Shown piece after piece: positions 24,656 through 58,632 of a stretch of DNA of 64,000 bases. Source of the DNA: Aurantiochytrium sp. KH105 (taxonomy: Eukaryota; Sar; Bigyra; Thraustochytrida; Thraustochytriidae); the NCBI GenBank assembly GCA_003116975.1, contig BGKB01000022.1:434001-498000 (forward strand), read 5' to 3'. Below the pieces are notes generated by a model, which was not told the DNA's origin, did no database searches, and was given only the letters and a program-made list of their open reading frames with translations. The translations under genes were made by a program, and so were the position numbers. The number at the start of each line of letters is the position of its first letter. Within the stretch, counting starts at the first letter, position 1.

Positions 24656-24948
24656 GATTGGCGTGTAAAGCAATCTGATCAGTTGTATACCAGCCTCAAG
24701 GCTACGGCCAGCAAGGCCGGCGAAGAAGCATAAATTGTGAATGATGAGAACCATGAGCCCGGGACTCGGGAAGGCGATAACCGCCAAAGGGCCCCTTTTA
24801 TTTATGACTGAAAAAACGGTTTCAAGCCGTTTCATAAACGTATCAGAACGTATATAACTTAACTTGCTTCGCGTGCGCGAGATGACGCAGAAGCATGGAA
24901 TGGAGTGGTTGGATTGTATAGGGCCTACTTGAAGACTTTTGGTTTGTT

Positions 24949-27900
24949 TTATTTCATTCGATCAAATTGCGACACGGCTGAATCATAGGCTCCTCCGTTT
25001 TTCTGCTGCTTGCCCTGGACGCAGCGTTTGATGAGCTCTTTCAGAAACGAATTCTCCTCGTACCATTTGCGTCGTACTGGGAGCGATTCTTCTTCCAGGA
25101 AAATACCACTGCAAAAGGAAGGCGTCGTAGCAATGTACTCGGAAAAAGTTGCATAGCTCAACCGATGTGTTTCATTTTCATGAACAGGCACAATGGGCTT
25201 GTTGGCCTCGAATGCACAGCGCAATTCATCTTTGACTGCTTCGCTCGCAAAGATACCTTTCGTGAGAACCAGAACATAGGTCCGAGCGCGACGGACGGCG
25301 GCAAGCATGGCGGCACGATTCAGATTGCCCTCGTGCGCTTGGTCAAACCACACTTTGAGGCCGCGATTCTCGAGCTTGCATCGTAATGCATCGCTTAGAT
25401 CTCCGCCCGTTGCCTGCACGTGGCTAATGAAAACGTGCGTATCTTCATCGGGGCCAAGCGGAGACACCGGCACAGGGCTCGACACTTGCTTTCCGTCTCC
25501 ATCTCCGTCGAGAGCGCCAAGATCTTCGCGAAAAAATGCATCAAAGTCGCTCACGTAGGCCGTCCGTCCGCCACTGGGGTCGCGCAGTCTCCTCTTCAGC
25601 TTACCTGCTTGATGAGCCTTTGCGAGCTTTCCGTGGGAAATGGATACTTGGGACGTTGGACTCACGAGGAGGAGCTCCCATGGAAGCTTGCGAAAGATGG
25701 TGTCCTTCTGCTCGCGGAACATGGACACCAAGAGCTTGATGACCAGTGCGGGCTGAACGGCCCTCTTGTCGATGCAAATGTGAATGACGTTGCCTCGAAC
25801 AGTAAGCAAAAAGTCATTGGCGCCGAAAGACATGATGGCTTGCGCGTTGTTTTGCCTCGGCGTCATGGGTTCATCATCACCTGCAACGTCGTCCCGTGAA
25901 GCGTACTCGGCACATTGCGCGACGAGACGATGGAAGACGCCGTTTGGAAGAAAAAATTTATCGAATGAAAGTATGCACGAAAGCCCAGGCTCAAAATGCG
26001 GCGTCTCGAGCGGCTCTGTCATTCCGGAAAGAAGTCCGGTCACAAGAAATTCGTCTTCTTCTGCGTCTTCGTCGAAACGCCACTCGGAAAGCAGCATGTT
26101 GGCAATCATAAAGTCGCGCAAAAATGTTACCTCTTGCTTGCGCCACAGCCATTCTAAAATGGAATGAGAAGCGATTGAGCTGCTGCGCATGCGCTCATAG
26201 GCTTCGATGTGTCCGCTAGCTCGAAGCTGCGGATCGTAAAACATTTTCTCTGCATGCAGATCATCGGCAATGACACAAGAGAGCTTGTCCAGAAGCCATT
26301 GTGGGTCCAGTACGACAATTCGTTCCAGTGCTGGCGAGGTGCGCAGATGCACAACAACACCAAGACCATGAAAATAGGCGATGAGGTCATCAGTCTCGTT
26401 GCGCGACTGCCCGTGGCTAGAAGCCCTTTGGATCAGGTCACTGTAGAGCCAGTAGGGCTCCGAACTTGCGACGAGCTCCTCGTAGATTTTGAGCCAGGCC
26501 AGTGGCACTCGCTCGCTCACATAGGGTTGCGCTGCAGCTGTGCTGACGATGGCCCTGCGAAGTTCCGCCGCGCGTTCGGGGTCCACGCTGCTGTTGTCAA
26601 CAGGAAAAAAGCGAAGCCCGTTTGGGGGAATGACGAGGGTTCCTGGTGCGCAGATTTTATGAGCCGCCAAATGTCGCTCTACTTTTAGCAGATCCTTGAC
26701 CTGATCAAGATAGGTTCCCACCAAAAGAATAGGCGCGTTCGGCGCGTGCAGCTTGATACTATTGAGCCAGAACCGCAGATAACCGATGGCATCTTCCCGC
26801 GAAGCAAGCAGCTCGAGCTCCTCTGGTTTGAGTTTTGTCTCGAACTCCGACTTGCCAATGATCTCGCGCATGTCGAAAACGACCAAATATAGGCCTTTCT
26901 CCGTCAGGAAGATGTGGTGAAGCGCATAGAAAACCTGTTGTCCGCCATAGTCCCAAATCGTAAAGCTCAATTCTCGCTCTGGGCCCTCTGGGGCAGACCT
27001 CTGCAGCAGGGCCTGATCCTCCTCGCTCATGGGAAATTTTTGAGCCACATCAGCTGGCTCAGGTAGATGATTTGTTGGAGTATGGCTTTCGCTTTCTTGA
27101 TCGTGGCGTACGTCCGAGCAAGCGGATAAAGCGGCGACGGCAAGCGTGTGGCTCGCAGGGGACGGTGCGGGCGCCTCAACTTTGGGTTCCTTTTCATCAG
27201 GGGGTTGGGACGTTTCGTCGGGGGCTGCATTGCCAGCTGCAGTGCGCGAAGCGTGAAGACGCTGTCTTGCTGCGTAACGCACTTGAGAGTCAAACTCTCC
27301 TTGGTCGGATTCCAGTGATTTCCAATCCATGGCTCGTGTCCTGTGAATGTCGGCCACCTCGGTGGAAAGATGAGCGGTATCGGGCATTTGTCCCAGCAAA
27401 GAACGAACGGTTGACGTCTTTCCTGCAGCGCCGCGACCCACTATCATGAGCTTGGCCCGTCCCCATGGATGGGAATCACCGTGCGCAATCGCCGTTTCCA
27501 CCGCGTCACGCCATTCTTCGTCGGTGACAGGGGCCAGGTCGGGCCCAGCAGAAGGAGAGCCTCCTTTATTGCGCGCAAGAGAGGCCCTGATCTGAGCAAG
27601 GATTCTTACGTCCTTAATATCGTGGCTGTGTGCGAGATTGCAATGCAAGTTTTTCCGGGCGTTAGATTCTGCGGAACTGCCGTGGTCGACCCGCTTTAAT
27701 TTCCAGTTCTTCTCTTGGGAAAATAATGAAACGTACTCGAGCTCTTGCAAGGTATGGTTACACTGCAACGCGGACGCTAGCGCTTGCGCGCTTTCTGCGG
27801 AAATGTTGTTGCTGAAAATACTGTGGAGATTGGCCAGACGAAGAAGCCTTTCGTTAGTGAAGAAGAGCTCAGAGACTGAGATTAAAGTCAGCAAATTCAA

Positions 27901-29040
27901 CCTACACTAGGGTCTGCAGACGACGGTTTTGCTTTAATGCGTTGGCTAGGGACGTGTGGCCTTCTGATCCAATGTTGTTGGTATTAAGGCTGTTTGTTGC
28001 AAGGAGAATTGTTCATACGATTAGCTCTCGGGTGCATCACAAAAAGCTGGCAAAAGATCCGATGCCCATCAAATGATACGTACTCGAGTAGACGGAGCGA
28101 AGTATTGGCCTCCAAAGCGATCGCCAGTGCTTTGGCGCCTGGACTTTGAATGTTGTTTCGCCGAAGACTGTGCGTGTTCGACAGCAAATCAAAGTGTCAG
28201 TTGCTCGAAGAGAAACAGTTGAGTTTAAGAAAAGCATAATGTGGTGAAAACGTACAAGAGCCACTCTAGCGAGGTACTTTGCCGCAAGGAGCAGGCGAGG
28301 GCCATGGCGCCCTCGTCACTAATGTTGTTGTTGCCAAGTCTGTTTGTTTGATTGCGCGAAGGTCAATACATGGACAGTGCAAAGAATTGACGGATCGACT
28401 CAGAATAAAAACGTACCCGAGAAGCTGAAGCGTTGTATTTGTTTCTAGCGCCTTGGCAAGGGCTTTGGCACCCTTGTCCCCAATTCCGTTGTCGCTAAGG
28501 CTGTTGCGCTTGTTCAGGTCAGCGAGACGATTGGTCTGGTCTGTCTCGGGCCAGGAACGAACGGGACACGTACTTGATTTTCTGCAGACTAGAGTTACGT
28601 CCAATCGCCACGGCAAGTGCCTCAGCACCGTCATCATCAATACTGTTGTACCGAAGGCTATAGTTTGAAGATAAAAATGTTTGTGAGAAAAGAGTTTTCT
28701 GAAAAAATCGTCTGAGAAAAACGTACTCGAGCCTTTCCAGAGTTGTATTCGTCGAAAGGACCTCTGCAACTGCCTTTGTGCCCTCGTTGCCAAGATGGTT
28801 CCCGAACAGGCTGTTACGTAGACGCATATACCGTAGTCGCAGGTCGCCAACCCCACCCCGCGGTCGGCCCCGTTTTCGCGCGTGAGTTCTCCTCGTCGTC
28901 ATCACCCATCGTTTCGCCACGCTGCGTGCGCCCTGCTTGCTCTTCGCGACTTACTCGACGTCCGAAAGCCCCTGCGCGATGCTGTGCAAGGCCGCGGCGG
29001 CCCCCCCTTGCCCAGCCGCGTCCGCGGCCCTCGTCGTCAT
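24949..29040 (-). CDS. LRR-Roc-COR-TIR protein (ROCO family), nine exons
   Basis: Proposed model, minus strand, 5' to 3': 29040-28955 (first exon, start uncertain), seven 84-nt exons 28810-28727, 28657-28574, 28500-28417, 28339-28256, 28167-28084, 27989-27906, 27820-27737, then 27676-24949. All introns are 60-144 nt, GT..AG and phase 2; six of the eight donors are GTACGT. The join is open throughout and gives 1133 residues. Seven 28-residue NLR/RNase-inhibitor-type LRRs (pattern LxLxxNxIxxxGAxALAxAL) precede a Roc GTPase (P-loop GRGAAGKTS near residue 305, switch II WDYGGQQ), a COR region, and a C-terminal TIR-like domain (about 968-1110) beginning DTHVFISHVQ with a Glu in AVKDELRCAF at the usual catalytic place. 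There is no kinase domain. A signalling or innate-immune role is inference. Upstream exons may be missing. Confidence 0.8.
27737..28810 (-). repeat. Array of seven single-LRR 84-nt exons
   Basis: Seven exons of exactly 84 nt, separated by introns of 85, 94, 88, 77, 73 and 69 nt (right-hand side of the gene last). Each starts after CAG or TAG and ends in front of GTACGT (GTAGGT once). Each codes one 28-residue LRR displaced by the same phase. DNA identity between exons is moderate, so the duplications are not recent. Confidence 0.88.
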
Positions 29041-29427
29041 CAGCGCTGCGCCCAGCTCTTCCAGCGCCGTGCCCTCGAACAGGATTTGCTTCTCGGCATC
29101 AACTTAATTAACTCAACTCTGATGCACAAACACGAACTGCGATAGGGACCTGGTCGGCGACGGCTACGAAAACTCCCTGGACGCCATGGCGACGATCGTG
29201 TGTGGTCTTCAGCGTGGCGCGCAGCGCCAACGACGATAGAGTTCCACGGTCGCGGCGATGGCGGTGAGCGAGAAGGATGAGGACGACGAGGACGATGATG
29301 ACGATGATGACTGATTGAGTGAGTGAGTGAGTGATGATGCGAGCGCGAATGATTCGTCCCGATCGTTGGATGATGTGGTGGAAAGAGCAATCAATACCTT
29401 GACCAACCACCACGGGGACGAGACACA
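29041..29427. promoter_or_regulatory. Divergent spacer, ROCO-TIR / topoisomerase II
   Basis: 387 bp between divergent genes, with a GAT/GAC-rich stretch and a GAGT repeat (about 29318-29334). The minus strand just upstream of the proposed ROCO start may hold another 5' exon: an acceptor-like AG precedes an open stretch in the same frame. I could not define it. Confidence 0.4.
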
Positions 29428-32400
29428 ATGCATGTGGCGCGAGCGCGGGCCGCCGGCGGGGCGGGCTGGCGATGGCTCGCGCGCGCAGGCGCAGGGCCAG
29501 CGCGGAAGACCTCGCCGGCGAGGTCGCAGCCGCTCGCGACGACTGGCCTGGCCCGGACAAGGACGGTTGACATCATGGTGGGCTCCGAGTCGGCGCGGGC
29601 GTGGAGACCACTCAGCAGCGACGCCAAGGTGAACGACCTGTACGAGCGCAAGACGCCCGAGGAACACGTGCTGCTACGGCCCGGCATGTACGTAGGGAGC
29701 GTAGACAAAATCACCGAGGAACTCTTTGTGTATGACAAAAAGTCCCGTCGCATGCAGCTCGAAGAAGTCTCGTACTCTCCGGGCCTCGTCAAGCTTTTTG
29801 ACGAAATTCTCGTGAACGCAGCGGACAATCTTGACCGGTCAGCAGGCAAGATGAATGCCATAGACATCTCCCTCGATCGCAGCACTCAGCGAATCACTGT
29901 ACGCAACAACGGCGCGGGTATTCCTGTGGTCATGCACGAAAAGGAAAAGGTGTACATTCCCGAGCTCGTCCTCGGCAACTTGCTGACCGGGTCAAACTTT
30001 GACGACACCGTGGAGCGCTTCACGGGTGGGCGCCACGGATACGGCGCCAAGCTCACCAACATTTTGTCAAACTCGTTCCGGGTGGAAACTCTCGACGCAG
30101 AGCGCAATCTGCTCTTTGAAATGGAATGGCATGATCATATGAAACCGGTCGGCGAGGGCGCCAAGGTGACCGAGCTTTCTGCAAAAGAAGTCGAGGCGCG
30201 AGGCGGGGGCTACACGGAGATATCTTTCGTGCCTGACCTCAAGGTATTTAAGATGGCCCGAATGGACAAGGGCACATTGCAAGTAATTGACCGCCGCGTG
30301 CGCGACATTGCGGGCCTGCTTGCGCCTTCAATCCAGGTGACCTGGAATGGGGTGCAAATAAAGGTTGCGTCCTTTGAAGAGTTCGCGAGTCAGTTTTTCG
30401 TTGGTGCTACGAAAACGCACGCGAGGCAAAACGGTGCCCTCTTCGAAAAGGGCAAGTGGCGCGTGATTGTGCTCCAGTCTCCGCTAGACAACGACCCGCT
30501 CATGCAAAGTTTTGTGAATCGCATGGCGACTCCTCGGGGCGGTCAACACGTGGACCACATTTTGAAGCAGCTTGAGCCCGCGCTGTTGGAAGCAGCAACG
30601 AAAAAGTTGCCAAAATCAAACGAGACGAAGATCACGCGCAAAATGGTGCAGCAAAAACTTGCCCTCTTCGTGGACTGCCGTCTCCCGAACCCTTCCTTCG
30701 ACACACAGGTCAAGGACAAGCTCACTTCCAAAGTGACGGCGCAAAATGGCTGTGAACTGCCTGCATCCTTTCTCACCTCCGTTGTGAAAAAGACTGGAAT
30801 TGTGGAGAGCATCGTTGCAGAAGCACAGGCGCGAGACAACGCTGTGCTGACGCGTGCGCCCCGGAGAACGTCGCGTAAGAGCCTACTTAGCATCCCCAAG
30901 CTCGAGGATGCTAACTGGGCAGGAACGTCGCGCTCGAGCGAGGCGACCCTCATTCTCACTGAAGGTGACTCCGCCAAGGCACTTGCCGTTGCAGGTTTGC
31001 CCGTCGTGGGCCGCGACGGCTACGGTGTGTTCCCGCTCCGCGGCAAACCACTCAACGTGCGCGACGCAACGGCGCGTACTGTGGTTAAGAACGAGGAGAT
31101 CAAAAACTTGTGCACGATCCTTGGGCTTGACTTTAAGAAGAAATACGCATCGCAAAAGGAGAAGGCTACGCTTCGGTACGGTCGCGTCATGCTCATGACG
31201 GATCAGGATTTTGACGGTTCGCACATCAAAGGACTTCTCATCAATCTTTTTCACTTCTTTTGGCCGGAACTACTCAAAACGCCAGGATTCCTCTGCGAAT
31301 TCGTGACGCCGCTCATCAAGGTGTCGTCGAACTCGAAAGGAAAGTCTGCTGCAAGCGGCGGCAAGCTCAGCTTCTTCACCATGCAAGATTACGAGAACTG
31401 GCTTGCGAGCAGTGGCATTGCGCCGCGTGCACACAGTGTAAAGTACTACAAAGGTCTGGGCACGAGCACATCCTCTGAGGCTCGCGAGTACTTTGGCAAT
31501 TTGCCCAAGCATGTGCTTGACTTCAAGTCGAATTCGCCCACTGAGGCGAGCGAGCTTATCGATATGGCCTTTAATAAAAAGCGCGCAAGCGACCGGCGGG
31601 ATTGGATTTCGCTGGCGCTCCAGCAGCAAGCTGACGGCAAGTTCAGCTACGTAGATCACAGCGCCAATTCGCTGCGCTTTGAGGAGTTTATCAATCAAGA
31701 GCTCGTTCTTTTCTCGCAGCATGATCTCGAGCGAAGCGTGCCCTCAGCCTTGGATGGCCTCAAACCGTCGCAGCGCAAGGTCCTTTTCGCTGCGTTGAAG
31801 CGAAACCTCACATCTTCAGAGCTCAAAGTCGCGCAGCTTGCCGGCTACGTCGGCGAGCAGACTGCTTACCATCACGGTGAGCAGTCATTGTATGCGACGA
31901 TCATCAACATGGCCCAGGACTTTGTCGGGAGCAACAACCTCCCGCTTCTGTTTCCCTCTGGTCAATTTGGCACCCGTCTGCAGGGCGGTAAAGACGCTGC
32001 AAGCCCGCGTTATATATTCACGCGTCTCCAAGAATATACGCGCGCAATTTTCCCGCCCGAGGACGATGCGTTGTTGGAACGAAACGAGGATGATGGCATG
32101 GTCGTGGAGCCTGTCGTGTACAAACCCATTATCCCAATGGCGCTCATCAACGGCGCCGAGGGGATTGGCACGGGCTGGTCTACCTTTGTGCCAGCGCACA
32201 ATCCTCTCGAGGTCATTGCCAATGTGCGGAGGCTTCTGCAGGGCGAACCTTTGGTGCCCATGATGCCATGGTATGAGGGCTTCAAGGGCACGATCGAGCC
32301 GCGAACCTGGATTTCCAAGAAGAAGGGGACCTTTACGTACGAGGATGGCTTTGTCTCGTCTGGAGTGATCGAGCGATTATCGAAGACCGAGGCGGTCGTT

Positions 32401-33162
32401 TCGGAACTACCAATCGGGCGCTGGACGGAGGATTTCAAGCTCGCGCTTCGCAATTTAGTCACCGAGGACAAGCTTGCGGACTTTTCCGAGCATCACGATG
32501 AGAGCTCTGTTCGATTTACCTTAAAGGGCACGGGCGCGACGCTTGATAAGCTCTGCGCAGACAGTGCCGCGCTGCGCATGTCAACCAAACTTTTGACGTC
32601 GAATATGCACTTTTTCGACCTTCAGGGCCGGGTCAAGCGCTACACGACACCCGAGGAAATCATCGAGGCATTCTATTCTGCGCGACTTGATTTGTACGCT
32701 AAACGCCGTCAGGTCATGCTTGACGACATGCGCTATCGCGTGAATCGTCTTCAAAACCAAGCGCGCTTTGCACTCGCTGTGAGTGAAGGAAGCTTTGCGA
32801 TTTTAGGCAAGTCCAAGGCCGACATTCTCGATCAACTTGTCGCAGAAGGCTTTGATAGAGAAGACTCACTTGGAAAGACTGGGGACGACGCTGATGACGA
32901 GGGTGGCGAGGCGGCGGCGGAGGCGGAGGCGGAGGCAGACGACGATGCGGCAGGGCACGGAAAGCGGGGCCGATCCCGGGGTCCTTTTGACTACCTCGTG
33001 AATACTCCCTTGTGGGACCTTACACAAGAGAACGTATTGCGAATTCGGAAAGAACTCTCGACTCTCGAGGACGAATTCAAGACTTTGCAGCAACTTCGCC
33101 CGGAGGATCTCTGGCTTCGTGACCTCGATCGGCTCGAAAAGATTATCGTTTCGTCAAAGTAA
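29428..33162 (+). CDS. TOP2: DNA topoisomerase II (type IIA)
   Basis: 1244 residues from the first ATG, or 1195 from the ATG at 29575 (MVGSES). ATP-dependent double-strand passage enzyme for chromosome segregation. The GHKL ATPase has DEILVNAADN and GRHGYGAKLTNILS. The TOPRIM domain starts with LTEGDSAKALAVAG (about residue 510 of the long form) and has DQDFDGSHIKGL. The catalytic Tyr is in ASPRYIFTRL (Tyr862 long form, Tyr813 short form). The winged helix, tower and C-gate follow. The protein stops right after the C-gate helices (LDRLEKIIVSSK), so it lacks the long variable C-terminal domain of animal and yeast enzymes. An acidic insert (about 1150-1175) sits in the coiled C-gate. The first 49 residues are Arg/Ala-rich and acid-free, so the long form could be mitochondrial and the short one nuclear; that is inference. 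Confidence 0.96.
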   Translation: MHVARARAAGGAGWRWLARAGAGPARKTSPARSQPLATTGLARTRTVDIMVGSESARAWRPLSSDAKVNDLYERKTPEEHVLLRPGMYVGSVDKITEELFVYDKKSRRMQLEEVSYSPGLVKLFDEILVNAADNLDRSAGKMNAIDISLDRSTQRITVRNNGAGIPVVMHEKEKVYIPELVLGNLLTGSNFDDTVERFTGGRHGYGAKLTNILSNSFRVETLDAERNLLFEMEWHDHMKPVGEGAKVTELSAKEVEARGGGYTEISFVPDLKVFKMARMDKGTLQVIDRRVRDIAGLLAPSIQVTWNGVQIKVASFEEFASQFFVGATKTHARQNGALFEKGKWRVIVLQSPLDNDPLMQSFVNRMATPRGGQHVDHILKQLEPALLEAATKKLPKSNETKITRKMVQQKLALFVDCRLPNPSFDTQVKDKLTSKVTAQNGCELPASFLTSVVKKTGIVESIVAEAQARDNAVLTRAPRRTSRKSLLSIPKLEDANWAGTSRSSEATLILTEGDSAKALAVAGLPVVGRDGYGVFPLRGKPLNVRDATARTVVKNEEIKNLCTILGLDFKKKYASQKEKATLRYGRVMLMTDQDFDGSHIKGLLINLFHFFWPELLKTPGFLCEFVTPLIKVSSNSKGKSAASGGKLSFFTMQDYENWLASSGIAPRAHSVKYYKGLGTSTSSEAREYFGNLPKHVLDFKSNSPTEASELIDMAFNKKRASDRRDWISLALQQQADGKFSYVDHSANSLRFEEFINQELVLFSQHDLERSVPSALDGLKPSQRKVLFAALKRNLTSSELKVAQLAGYVGEQTAYHHGEQSLYATIINMAQDFVGSNNLPLLFPSGQFGTRLQGGKDAASPRYIFTRLQEYTRAIFPPEDDALLERNEDDGMVVEPVVYKPIIPMALINGAEGIGTGWSTFVPAHNPLEVIANVRRLLQGEPLVPMMPWYEGFKGTIEPRTWISKKKGTFTYEDGFVSSGVIERLSKTEAVVSELPIGRWTEDFKLALRNLVTEDKLADFSEHHDESSVRFTLKGTGATLDKLCADSAALRMSTKLLTSNMHFFDLQGRVKRYTTPEEIIEAFYSARLDLYAKRRQVMLDDMRYRVNRLQNQARFALAVSEGSFAILGKSKADILDQLVAEGFDREDSLGKTGDDADDEGGEAAAEAEAEADDDAAGHGKRGRSRGPFDYLVNTPLWDLTQENVLRIRKELSTLEDEFKTLQQLRPEDLWLRDLDRLEKIIVSSK

Positions 33163-54236: not shown

Positions 54237-55296
54237 ACTCAGGGACGATTCAGTTTCGTCCCAGAGCGACGACTGCTTACAAAGCAGTAGACTTTCATTA
54301 CAAAGATAAAGGTTTCGAGTTCGTGAATGTCTTCTTCTTCGCAAATTTGTTTTTTATCGAATGTCTCTCCGTCTGTGCTGGACGAAAGGAAAGAGACACT
54401 GTCTACCATCTCCTGCCCCGCTTGTGCTGCTTCGCTGTCAGTAAAAACCTCACCACGCGCTGCATAACACACCCCCTCCTGCTCCTCCCCACGTCCCTAC
54501 TCCCCTCCCCCCCCCCCCCCTCTTGCTCTCCGAGTAAAACTTTCGCTGTTACCGTTCACCTCGAGGCACGTGCTCCATCCCGCCGCACACCCGCAACTAA
54601 TAACACACCTCATCCAGCCAGCCAGCCATTCAGCCCGTCTCGCAGTAAATGAAACCAGCCCGGCCAAGTAAAGACAAGATCCGGCCCTGCGCAGCTCGCG
54701 CTGGCCGCGCGGCGCAGCCTCCGCGCGGCGCCGTCCCCGGCCTGCTCGGCCTCGACCTGCACGCCTCGCAAAAGTCGTCCTCGCCTCACAGCCCTGCGGC
54801 GCCCGGAGCTGCTTGGTCTCTCTGGACCAGCCGCCGGCATCAGCACAGCAACAATAAGAGGGAGAGCGCAGACACGGGCCGAGCACGGGCAGCGCAGACT
54901 CGCTGCGCGCCCCCCGGGGCAGCGCGCGCGCCGCGTCAGGCCGGGGCGGGCGGCGGGCAGAGGGGGGCAGCGGGGGCGGCCGCGAGGTACAGCACGTGCC
55001 GCCTTTGGACGCGGCAGAGCGGCCTCGTGCACCTGTCACGGCCGCGCGCGGCGGCGAGGCGCGCACGGGCGGCCGCGCGACGGGCGGCGAGACGCGGGCG
55101 GAGGGCCGTCCGCTGCGCCCTGCGCCCTCCCCGCGCTCGCCCGGGCCGCGCTGCGGCGCGCAGGGCGGGCGGGGCCGGCAGCGGAAATTGAGTTTGATTG
55201 AAGCGGGGCACCTACCNAGCGGAAATTGAGTTTGATTGAAGCGGGGCACCTACCTGCCTGCTTGACGTGCGTGCGTGCACGGGAGAGACGCCAGGC
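54237..55296. other. Spacer upstream of the large LRR protein, with assembly join
   Basis: 1.06 kb with no supported gene. A C-run (about 54507-54521), then 600 bp of very high GC where several frames are open at once. A 37-bp exact repeat flanks an N at 55217. Confidence 0.55.
55180..55254. repeat. 37-bp direct repeat around an N (probable contig join)
   Basis: The 37 bases at 55180-55216 are repeated exactly at 55218-55254, with a single N between. This is what two overlapping contig ends look like when joined without merging. The duplication is probably not real. Confidence 0.9.
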
Positions 55297-58200
55297 ATGG
55301 CCAAGTGGGGAGGCACGCGCAGAGGCCAATTGCTCCGGCGCGGACGCCGCGAGGAGGACCGCGGCCAGACGGAGAATGCTTACCGACCGTCGGACTTCAA
55401 CGCCGAGGAGCACAGGGAAGTGGACGAAGTCCTGGCGGCGCAGAACGCGCGCATGTCGCCCATTCGACGATTTGGCACCTTTCTCGCGGGGCTATGGCCT
55501 GGCAGCCGATGGTCGTCGTCCAACGCCTCGAGAGCGTCGATAAACGAGACGAACGATATACCACGCTCACGTTCTGTACCTTTTGGAGCAAGGGGTGATC
55601 GCTCTCAGGGCGGCGCAAGATCGGGCGCGGGGGTCACGAGCACAAGAGACGACGACGATACACGGGCCGACATTCTCGAGGACGCTGATGTGGGTGTTCA
55701 CAGCATTTTTGCCACTGGTCGCAGTCATGGTCTTCCTCCTGCTCACGATCTCGAGGAGGTTAATGACGTTTCCCGGGACGAGCATGAAGGCCTCGCAAAT
55801 GAACAGAGTTTTGCGACGGCTATGGAAACTGCGCACGCATATCATGCTCGGGATCACGAAGCTGAGGAGGATGAGGACGAGGACGATGATGAGGACGAGG
55901 AGAGTCACAACGATTCCGGCGAAAGAATTTCAAGTGTTTTCCCATCTGCTCAGCCTCATGGCGATATTGATGCAGCTGACAGTGATGGCTGGGACGAGCA
56001 CGAGAGCGCGGATGATCGTTCTGAGACTGATCTCCTTTGTCAGGATGACAGCAAGAGCGAGCGCGACGATGCCTCCAGACAAACAGGTGGCAAATTTTCG
56101 GTTTCCAGAAGACTGAGCGGAGATAGTAAAAATTCCTCCATTTCGGGAAAGTTATCTGCAATGCTATCGACACGAATTAACCTCTCACGGCCGAAACGGC
56201 CGTCGAATATACCGGAGCATGACGTGGAAAGCGTGCGCTACGATGACGGAAGTGAAGGCTCGCCAATATTTGAAGATGGTGAGGTACTTTGCTCCTACTA
56301 CGAAACAGACTCTGATTGTGAGGAAGGTGAGAGTGAATTTACGGACAGTCACGTCTTCAATGAAAGTGCAGACGACATCGACAATGACGATAATGATGAT
56401 GGTGACGTCTCCGAAGATGACACTCTTTCCGTGCTGTCCCTCATTCCAGCGACACCTCCTGCTTCGCACAAGACATCGGACCCCCTGATGCGGGAGCTTT
56501 CTGATGCCTTGAGCAAGCGAAGGCAACTCATCATTCCTAAAGAGGAACGAGACTCCATCGAGAATCTAACAAGGGACGGCAAGCAAGTTCGTGGTTATAC
56601 TTACCTCCAACAACACAGGGATCGAACGGGTCAGGAGCATGGAGACGACGAAAATACGTCCTATGCGTCATCGGTTGCGAGTGAGGTGGACAGCTTTGCC
56701 GATGAGATTCCTGAAAGTGAATCGTCTTCAAGTGACAAAGACGATGACACTAATTCCTTGAAGAGTAGCTTGCTTGCTTCAGCGCTCTTTGCTACCTCGA
56801 GGGTGGTTTTGAGAAGGCCCTCGACGGGTGTCCAGTCTCGGTCATCCCTGGCTTCGATTCCTGAGGACTCGCCGCAAGTCCTGCCGCAGCGCACGCTGCA
56901 GTCTCCAACCGCGTCGTCGAGCACGCCTGTGGTGACTCCAGCAGAGGCAGCGTCATCCCCTGGACCGGTGTCCTCCCGGGTCGTGGCGCATCGTAGGCCC
57001 GAGTCCGTGGCCACGACGCCCGTTTCACCACAGCCGGCGTCGGTACAAAGCGCGCGACCTCAATTTCGTGTTACGAAATCTGAGACCGTGCCAAGATCTT
57101 GGCCGACTGAGAGAGAGCGTCAAACTGCGGAAGCAGGCTTGCTTCCTGGTGTCCCCGCGGGCCGACCTCTACAACCGGCGTCGGTACGAAGCGCGCGACC
57201 TCAATTTCGTGTTTCGAAACCTGAGACCGTGCCAAGATCTTGGCCGACAGAGAGAGAGCGTCAAACTGCGGAAGCAGGCTTGCTTCCTGGTGTCCCCGCA
57301 GGCCGACGTTTTCATACAACCGTGGCAGAGTCGTCGCGCGGATCGGCAACTCGCGTCAGACCATTTGCAAGAACCGCCAGTGAAGACACGCCAGAGACCA
57401 AGGCTCCTCGTGTGCGGCGGCCCTCATTCATGTCACTCATGCGAGGAGGAGGAGGAGGAGGAGGAGGAGGAGGAGGAGGAGGAGGGATAGGAAGAGCAAG
57501 ACGCGTTTCGCAGTCTGCGGCTGCAAAGCGCCCGAGTCTTGTAACTCGCAGAGACACGAAGAACGACGCTGCGCACACGACCACACGTCCGGACGCTGCG
57601 TTTACGAGAAGTGTTCGTGCGTCTGCTCTCCCGAAACGTGCATCTGGCAAGATGGGCCGTGCATCGTCAACACGAATGGACGGTGCATCAAGAAAGAGGT
57701 GGGAAGATAGTGCGAGCTCAGGATTATTTCCTGGCATTCCTGCAGGACAGCCCCTCCCGAAACGTGCATCTGGCAGGATGGGCCGTGCATCGTCACCACG
57801 AATGGACGATGCATCAAGAAAGAGGTGGGAAGAAAGTGCGAGCGCAGGGTTACTTCCTGGCATTCCTGCAGGACAGCCCCGTCCGCAAAAGAGTGGCAGA
57901 CAAGGTGCATCGGTAAGCAAATCAACATGGCGTTCGGAACTGAAAGATACGCGCACGTCTTTTACGAGAGCTAGCGCTGCACGGCGTGCGAGCCAGGCAC
58001 ACCGCTATACGGGAATGGTGGGACCTGGTTCGGATCCATTAAAAGCCATGGGTGACTTTAATGATTCGCGGCTCCAAGACGCCATGCGCGACACGGAAGA
58101 AGGGAAACCCTTCGTCGAGCTTACTGACTCGGCATATGTGGACCCGGACAAGTTTTCAGAGCTCTGCGACAAACTTTCGGAAGCAAGAGACGTGCGACGC

Positions 58201-58632
58201 ATTTCATTTGTCGGTCTCGACATTGGGGGAGATCCTGCCAAACTGGAGGCCGTGTGCCGCTTGTTGGAGTCCCAGGATCACATTGCGGGGCTTGATCTTT
58301 CATACAATCATTTACACGACGAGCACATGGCTTTGCTCGCAAGCAGCCTTGCATCAGATCCTGCGCGCAGCCTGCAGCGCTTGAATCTTTGCAAGAACGC
58401 GCTATCTGACGAGGGATTATATCTTCTCTTGGAGGCGATCCAAGATCGAGAGTCCATGGAGGAGCTCGATCTCGGTCGCAACAGCTCGATTACGAGGCAA
58501 GGCCTCGGTCAATTTGCCCAGTTCCTCCTCGAGGTTCCTGTCGAGATCGTGAACGTGGAGGGTTGCGGCAAGAAGAACGACCAGATGGCTCGCGATCTCG
58601 TGCACTCTCGTGCAGGGAGCGCTGGCGTTTAG
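55297..58632 (+). CDS. Large disordered protein with internal repeats and C-terminal LRRs
   Basis: 1111 residues from ATG 55297 (MAKWGGTR). The first 900 residues are mostly disordered, with Asp/Glu-rich, Ser-rich and Arg-rich stretches. Two tandem repeats occur: two copies of a 47-residue unit (57034-57315) and two of a 42-residue unit (57628-57879). Both share a core of Trp then GL[LF]PG[VI]PAG. A 14-residue poly-Gly run (about 57445-57486) precedes the second pair. The last 190 residues hold three to four RNase-inhibitor-type LRRs (HIAGLDLSYNHLHDEHMALL, RSLQRLNLCKNALSDEG and SMEELDLGRNSSIT). No catalytic domain is seen. A scaffold or cytoskeletal role is a guess. Confidence 0.78.
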   Translation: MAKWGGTRRGQLLRRGRREEDRGQTENAYRPSDFNAEEHREVDEVLAAQNARMSPIRRFGTFLAGLWPGSRWSSSNASRASINETNDIPRSRSVPFGARGDRSQGGARSGAGVTSTRDDDDTRADILEDADVGVHSIFATGRSHGLPPAHDLEEVNDVSRDEHEGLANEQSFATAMETAHAYHARDHEAEEDEDEDDDEDEESHNDSGERISSVFPSAQPHGDIDAADSDGWDEHESADDRSETDLLCQDDSKSERDDASRQTGGKFSVSRRLSGDSKNSSISGKLSAMLSTRINLSRPKRPSNIPEHDVESVRYDDGSEGSPIFEDGEVLCSYYETDSDCEEGESEFTDSHVFNESADDIDNDDNDDGDVSEDDTLSVLSLIPATPPASHKTSDPLMRELSDALSKRRQLIIPKEERDSIENLTRDGKQVRGYTYLQQHRDRTGQEHGDDENTSYASSVASEVDSFADEIPESESSSSDKDDDTNSLKSSLLASALFATSRVVLRRPSTGVQSRSSLASIPEDSPQVLPQRTLQSPTASSSTPVVTPAEAASSPGPVSSRVVAHRRPESVATTPVSPQPASVQSARPQFRVTKSETVPRSWPTERERQTAEAGLLPGVPAGRPLQPASVRSARPQFRVSKPETVPRSWPTERERQTAEAGLLPGVPAGRRFHTTVAESSRGSATRVRPFARTASEDTPETKAPRVRRPSFMSLMRGGGGGGGGGGGGGGIGRARRVSQSAAAKRPSLVTRRDTKNDAAHTTTRPDAAFTRSVRASALPKRASGKMGRASSTRMDGASRKRWEDSASSGLFPGIPAGQPLPKRASGRMGRASSPRMDDASRKRWEESASAGLLPGIPAGQPRPQKSGRQGASVSKSTWRSELKDTRTSFTRASAARRASQAHRYTGMVGPGSDPLKAMGDFNDSRLQDAMRDTEEGKPFVELTDSAYVDPDKFSELCDKLSEARDVRRISFVGLDIGGDPAKLEAVCRLLESQDHIAGLDLSYNHLHDEHMALLASSLASDPARSLQRLNLCKNALSDEGLYLLLEAIQDRESMEELDLGRNSSITRQGLGQFAQFLLEVPVEIVNVEGCGKKNDQMARDLVHSRAGSAGV
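57034..57315 (+). repeat. Tandem 141-nt coding repeat, two copies
   Basis: Copies at 57034-57174 and 57175-57315 differ at few positions. Each codes 47 residues (PASVxSARPQFRV... to PGVPAGRP). High identity means a recent duplication or gene conversion. Confidence 0.9.
57628..57879 (+). repeat. Tandem 126-nt coding repeat, two copies
   Basis: Copies at 57628-57753 and 57754-57879, about 90 percent alike by eye. Each codes 42 residues (LPKRASGxMGRASS... to PGIPAGQP). Confidence 0.9.

Follow-up and report, generated by a model that had tools for sequence, protein, structure and literature searches.

The window analysed here, a stretch of 64,000 nucleotides (positions 434001-498000 of contig C22 in the 76-Mb, 367-contig KH105 assembly), carries on its minus strand a predicted nine-exon gene (29040-24949; all positions are window coordinates) whose product would consist of seven leucine-rich repeats (LRRs) followed by Roc, COR and TIR domains. 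With a probability of roughly two in three (0.66), we read this gene as one of a large family of putative LRR-Roc-COR-TIR receptors with modular and in part diversifying LRR exons. Judged from its sequence, the window gene is a stable member of this putative receptor family, and the idea that modular exons generate variability is supported for the family but not for the window gene itself. The exons, last intron and domains of the gene model were assigned as follows.

28955-29040, minus strand: exon 0, 86 nt, with the putative start codon and an N-terminal half-repeat; ends in phase 2, donor GTAAGT
28727-28810, minus strand: LRR exon 1, 84 nt, phase 2
28574-28657, minus strand: LRR exon 2, 84 nt, phase 2
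28417-28500, minus strand: LRR exon 3, 84 nt, phase 2
28256-28339, minus strand: LRR exon 4, 84 nt, phase 2
28084-28167, minus strand: LRR exon 5, 84 nt, phase 2
27906-27989, minus strand: LRR exon 6, 84 nt, phase 2, donor GTAGGT
27737-27820, minus strand: LRR exon 7, 84 nt, phase 2
27677-27736, minus strand: last intron, 60 nt, a multiple of 3 with no in-frame stop
24949-27676, minus strand: last exon (Roc, COR-A, TIR), 2728 nt, placed by Pfam matches and the spliced frame; stop codon at 24949-24951
26704-27462, minus strand: Roc GTPase, from the P-loop GRGAAGKTS to where the Pfam match ends
26029-26505, minus strand: COR-A, by Pfam
25174-25434, minus strand: TIR, by Pfam TIR_2, with a Glu at residue 1042 in KDEL

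The seven LRR exons (28810-27737) are each exactly 84 nt long and in phase 2, and each encodes one 28-codon LRR of the pattern LxxNxIxxxGAxxLAxALxxNxxLxxL or near it, with the split codon at the exon junctions restoring the repeat. The spliced frame comprises 1133 residues without an internal stop. The original prediction, made from the letters of the window, had described seven such exons at these coordinates and introns of 60-144 nt, and both statements were borne out: the introns measured 144 nt before the LRR series, 69, 73, 77, 88, 94, and 85 nt between the LRR exons, and 60 nt after them. Its heading had given the seven exons the same donor, and its text GTACGT for most donors; GTACGT is indeed present at six of the seven, but exon 6 has GTAGGT, and in the second haplotype (contig C12) exon 3 has GTAAGT. 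As it had further proposed, any single one of the seven LRR exons could be skipped in silico with the frame kept and no stop gained. The ATG of exon 0 is the likely start codon, since frame-changing indels separate C22 from C12 immediately 5' of it, with near identity 3' of it, and the acceptor at 27677 is favored because the divergence between the haplotypes drops from 6/60 positions before it to 2/51 after it. The introns at 27677-27736 (60 nt) and 28658-28726 (69 nt) are both divisible by 3 and stop-free, so that their retention would keep the frame.

The reality of the introns was assessed by comparing alleles and relatives. Both haplotypes seem to have been assembled in the KH105 contigs, as many matches occur in contig pairs and C12 shows 95% identity to the window region over 9 kb. 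Between C22 and C12, the seven LRR exons differ by 18 substitutions in 588 nt and by no indels, and the last exon is also indel-free, whereas four of the eight introns contain indels (4, 5, 5, and 11 nt), none of which is a multiple of 3. Identity is 87-97% in the introns and 94-99% in the exons, and in-frame stops are present in four of the eight introns. We scored LRR units with a matrix in 23 gene copies of the LRR-ROCO type, made up of the ten allelic pairs (both alleles counted) and of C265, C6, and C201. Of the 259 units above a fixed score, with weaker repeats outside the count, 255 are flanked by an AG and by a phase-2 GT donor, like the exons of the window gene. These 255 units measure 84 nt (241 units), 87 nt (12), or 81 nt (2), and the donors across the LRR units are GTAAGT (136), GTACGT (76), GTAGGT (21), and others. 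Three intron-free LRR loci of the same genome, two of them apparently an allelic pair, served as controls, and 0 of their 31 units had AG...GT at the corresponding places; set against the 255 of 259 units in the relatives, this shows that the LRR exon boundaries did not arise by chance. That the introns were mis-called, or that the exon series is pseudogene debris, might explain the four units without a standard boundary, but the likelihood of this is close to negligible given that the LRR exons of the window gene are free of indels between alleles while its intron indels break the triplet, that the frame of the window gene is intact, and that the framework codons of the LRR units are constrained, with a ratio of nonsynonymous to synonymous differences per site (pN/pS) of 0.39 in both array groups (A and B) described below. 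The seven-exon LRR structure of the window gene is thus confirmed at the level of the genome sequence.

The last exon gave Pfam matches to Roc (54.2 bits), COR-A (52.6 bits), and TIR_2 (42.9 bits), each over its cut-off; at an E value of 0.001, the matches in this exon were Roc, COR-A, TIR_2, and Ras, and no NACHT domain was found. Roc followed by COR in one protein, the arrangement that defines a ROCO protein, is present in the predicted product. The P-loop and the motif DYGGQ are invariant across 15 aligned family sequences, and in the Protein Data Bank, Roc-COR is closest to Roco-type proteins and LRRK2, and TIR to TIR-1/SARM1. Glu 1042 (KDEL) falls in the alignment on the KEL glutamate of TIR-1, which we take to be the catalytic NADase residue, and Glu 1042 is kept in 14 of 15 aligned family proteins, the remaining one, L024, having Q. 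The sequence therefore has what is expected of a TIR NADase of the SARM1/TIR-1 type, a TIR domain with the aligned Glu, and the domain may have this activity. Modelling of the last exon with AlphaFold from 15 sequences gave a mean pLDDT of 57 and a pTM of 0.32, too weak to use. Among 66 candidate stretches from contigs of bacteria and archaea, there was one relative, in a Cytophagales metagenome-assembled genome (25% identity in the best segment), and no origin was inferred from it. An Rfam search of window positions 24900-29500 gave no match.

The size of the family was estimated from profile matches in the whole assembly, with both haplotypes included. The COR-A profile gave 124 matches, 116 of them over the cut-off, and the TIR_2 profile gave 150 scored matches from 258 candidates. 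We inspected 26 of the 124 COR-A matches (that of the window, 20 top-ranked ones, and C254, C16, C5, C21, and C201, added by similarity), and 23 were of the LRR type and three of the WD40 type, proportions that describe this selection and not a genome-wide share. Every one of the 11 LRR-type last exons scanned, from the window gene and ten other loci, matched Roc, COR-A, and TIR_2; the TIR match of L024, at 24.9 bits, lies under the cut-off of 28. L022, L026, and L027 (contigs C44, C154, and C115) each have a single open frame (1143-1339 codons) for WD40-Roc-COR-TIR, and LRR exons were not found at these loci. Since both types occur, one Roc-COR-TIR chassis appears to carry at least two kinds of sensor. 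Overall, these loci make up a large, immune-receptor-like gene family in a genome resembling that of a marine protist, and many members have a separate exon for each LRR. In one LRR gene pair, L006/L007 (C117/C54), one-repeat exons are mixed with two- or three-repeat exons, as if introns had been lost, and five LRR units lie at a contig end at C143:276500-279441.

Exon number differs between alleles in two of the ten allelic pairs: C20 has 30 units and C254 has 24, and C41 has 15 and C16 has 12 (C41 has 16 at a lower score, and C16 has 12 at both scores). One unit in C16 and one in C254 lack the standard acceptor. Allelism of these two pairs was examined by flank searches, and that of the others by alignment over about 7-10 kb, the less certain pairs being C97/C200 (89%) and C13/C24 (90% over 7 kb and 80% over the remainder). 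Searched against the genome, the 2.5-kb upstream flank of C20 gave a single further full-length match, on C254 (91%), and the 2.45-kb flank of C41 likewise a single one, on C16 (92%). In both C20 and C254, the array begins about 8.6 kb from the flank anchor, with 16 and 10 units, respectively, followed by a linker and by 14 exons whose order agrees between the two, and no C254 unit has a partner of more than 85% identity in C20. The original suggestion that repeat number varies therefore holds for two sister genes and not for the window gene, and unequal crossing-over, which it offered as a cause, would be a plausible one. In C20, C254, C97, C200, and C265, the two LRR blocks are joined by two exons, a short one of 66 nt in C20 and one resembling a coiled coil (alignment by eye), and C254 carries an insertion resembling a partial duplication of the coiled-coil-like linker exon.

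The arrays are also the less conserved parts of most of these genes. In C20/C254, identity was 93% in Roc-COR-TIR and the 3' flank, 90% in the 14-exon block, and 82% in the array, the last with 1613 gap columns. In C41/C16, it was 95% in the 5' flank, 90% in the Roc part, 89% in the array with 2045 gap columns, and 81% just upstream, and in C97/C200, it was 97% in the 5' flank, 92% in the Roc part, 88% in the 14-exon block, and 81% in the array. The fourth array-type pair, C5/C21, showed 95.5% in the array and 95% in the Roc part. Hence, the array is less conserved than the best flank or 3' part in three of the four pairs (82, 89, and 81% versus 93, 95, and 97%). Several units are nearer to another locus than to their own allele, namely C41_13 (90% to C5_6 versus 77% to C16_10), C200_5 (92% to C265_10 versus 87% to C97_5), and C16_9. 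The correlation between exon-framework and intron distances was weak in group A (0.14-0.16) and moderate in group B (0.42-0.56), a pattern that would follow if recombination brought together exons and introns with separate histories.

Variation within the array units is concentrated at codons 2, 3, 5, and 26, where pN is 0.36-0.72; at other codons it is mostly below 0.3, with the exceptions of codon 22 in group A (0.42) and codon 8 in group B (0.34). From the general structure of LRR proteins, codons 2, 3, 5, and 26 are expected on the concave beta-strand face. The ratio of pN at these codons to the pS of all codons was 1.74 (95% interval 1.54-1.98) and 1.77 (1.60-1.95) in the two array groups, and relative to the pS of the same codons it was 1.61 in group A (1.28-2.17; 45 units). 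The conserved 14-exon block shows constraint at these four codons (pN 0.066 versus pS 0.278). The sequences may thus point to diversifying selection at putative concave-face codons, the excess being clear in group A, borderline in group B, and absent between the alleles of the window gene. The original prediction of a changing recognition surface accordingly finds support in the array exons, which vary most at these codons, and none in the alleles of the window gene, which differ nonsynonymously at 1 of 67 sites at the variable codons and at 4 of 360 sites elsewhere.

Taken together, the best explanation is as follows. By the gene models, the LRR solenoid of the family is encoded by symmetric phase-2 exons, nearly all of which carry one 28-codon repeat each, so that recombination in the introns could insert, delete, or swap repeats with the frame unbroken. 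Some sister genes possess an extra distal array with a unit of an 84-nt exon plus an intron of about 180 nt and with fast turnover, the Roc-proximal exons and the Roc-COR-TIR exon being better conserved than this array, and unequal crossing-over and conversion in introns would cause the differences in number. The proteins may be intracellular receptors in which the LRR solenoid binds a ligand, Roc-COR acts as a GTP-dependent switch, and TIR signals or kills through NAD+ cleavage, possibly in self-defence against microbes or viruses.

A number of observations weigh against this explanation. Eight of the ten allelic pairs have equal unit counts, namely C22/C12 (7/7), C17/C36 (10/10), C13/C24 (5/5), C97/C200 (19/19), C5/C21 (8/8), and three C138/C69 genes (7/7, 6/6, and 5/5; a 242/236-nt gap in the 5/5 gene could conceal a further unit), and the window gene combines equal exon numbers with no excess at exposed codons. 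The low identity of C20 and C254 extends beyond the array, to 81% in the 700 nt just upstream and 70% in the linker. Near-identical units can be assembled wrongly: the array of C265 contains a gap with 937 N (L018:853-1932), and the similarity of its units, often 90-96%, indicates that arrays of this kind are hard to assemble. C265 was left unpaired in view of this gap and of its flank, which gave a short match close to the beginning of contig C123. In group B, the ratio of pN to the pS of the same codons, 1.17 (0.99-1.41; 43 units), is not clear of 1, and the closest pairs have pS above pN at the variable codons. The C5 and C21 arrays are collinear and show no excess, with 2/72 nt changed at variable codons versus 16/432 at framework codons. 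Moreover, the variable codons were chosen from the data on which they were then tested and the unit pairs are non-independent, so that all intervals given here are descriptive.

Several other explanations were considered. The window gene could be an ordinary conserved ROCO signalling protein whose seven exons are the relic of an old exon duplication, with diversification restricted to the array-type sisters. Its equal exon numbers and few nonsynonymous allele differences agree with this, as does the comparison with LRR exons elsewhere in the genome, which the original prediction had proposed as a tree and which was run as best matches: the best matches of the seven exons come to 13-17 of 27 residues among themselves and 13-18 with exons elsewhere, so that they are about as distant from each other as from the latter. 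However, architecture, exon phase, and TIR are common to the window gene and its diversifying sisters, and the proposal is compatible with the receptor-family explanation; as a rival to it, we consider it rather improbable. Alternative splicing, by skipping or choice of LRR exons, which the original prediction had named as another way for repeat number to vary, is an unlikely main source of variety. The 255 standard-boundary units all have lengths divisible by 3, skipping of any single LRR exon leaves the frame of the window gene open, and splice variants are described for the LRRs of brown-algal ROCO genes (PMC11378527) and for human NLRP3, in a form without exon 5 (PMC6642158), but splicing leaves the differences in exon number between haplotypes unexplained.

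Somatic assembly or mutation of the arrays, or a mutator aimed at exposed codons, would account for the finding that variable codons differ at 45% of nonsynonymous sites in eight group A unit pairs with about 3% intron divergence, and at 35% in the 11 corresponding group B pairs. In the same pairs, however, synonymous exon sites differ by 23% (A) and 16% (B) despite the close introns, so that exon and intron histories look decoupled and recombination explains the pattern without a mutator. The C5/C21 alleles show no excess, and the mutator was set aside for this reason; somatic change as a whole is highly improbable. The receptor family with recombining LRR exons remains our preferred explanation.

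Three neighboring or unrelated features were noted. An open reading frame (ORF) at window positions 29428-33162, which is presumably DNA topoisomerase II-like, lies on the strand opposite to the ROCO gene, a few hundred bases from its start. A single-exon ORF at 55267-58632 has a C-terminal part that reads as uninterrupted LRR-like repeats, and it had no Pfam match at E 0.001. Pieces of a PfaA-like polyunsaturated fatty acid synthase are present on the contig pairs C72/C155 and C290/C61 below the family cut-off, with matches of 930 bits on each of two contigs against a cut-off of 1010; this profile also gives some match in 11 of 14 control genomes. The synthase pieces hint at a thraustochytrid but do not prove it.

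Large exon-shuffled ROCO repertoires have been tied to the multicellularity of brown algae, since at most four ROCOs were reported, by Roc profile, from other SAR species, Schizochytrium aggregatum among them (PMC11378527). The same exon logic is found here with another repeat length, a TIR effector, and the 124 COR-A matches over both haplotypes; the two surveys differ in the profile used, Roc there and COR-A here. In the thraustochytrid literature accessible to the search, no report of such LRR/TIR ROCO genes was found, which is not proof of their absence, and a term search of PMC12258536 did not find LRR, leucine-rich, WD40, or GTPase. Speculatively, and with little confidence, these data could describe a probably unicellular stramenopile with many tens of Roc-COR-TIR immune receptors of two sensor kinds, LRR exon arrays and single-exon WD40 propellers, in which the arrays are recombining cassettes so labile that alleles can lack clearly matching units and variety may arise even within clonal lineages. 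If the host is a thraustochytrid, the link of ROCO repertoires to multicellularity would fail, an independent origin versus a deep ancestry of modular LRR receptors would become testable, and the turnover of receptor exons could be measured in clones of a single-celled organism.

Among known systems, the variable lymphocyte receptors of lampreys likewise consist of LRR modules with variable concave residues, but they are extracellular receptors assembled somatically, and nothing here points to somatic assembly. In animal NLRs, the LRRs lie C-terminal of the nucleotide switch, and this switch is a NACHT domain, unlike the Roc-COR of the window gene. The parallel with animal NLR genes drawn in the original prediction therefore stands as an analogy only: LRRs on separate exons, in-frame skipping in NLRP3, and an intracellular sensor with a nucleotide switch, the last of these being predicted here. 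Exon-modular LRR domains occur in human gene families (PMC6642158), and zebrafish NLRs form a large family with exon shuffling (PMC4852459). The red alga Chondrus crispus has five ROCOs, including a TPR-ROCO-TIR (PMC11378527), which resembles the window gene in joining a ROCO with TIR and differs in its TPR sensor.

The closest case found is that of the brown-algal LRR-ROCO genes, which Zambounis et al. (2012) reportedly studied. Teng et al. (2024) described 72-bp phase-2 LRR exons, splice variants, and exon shuffling in these genes, with positively selected sites on the concave face (PMC11378527). Groups 1 and 2 of the brown-algal genes share with the window gene N-terminal LRRs and Roc, one LRR per phase-2 exon, and a stramenopile host. 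They differ in that their 72-bp exons correspond to a 23-residue LRR, compared with 84 nt and 28 codons here, and in that they are described as LRR-ROC-COR without a further domain, no TIR being reported from brown algae, whereas the window gene has a predicted C-terminal TIR. Relative to the brown algae, the 84-nt units, the TIR effector, the WD40 branch, the size of the repertoire, and the allelic differences in exon number thus appear to be new.

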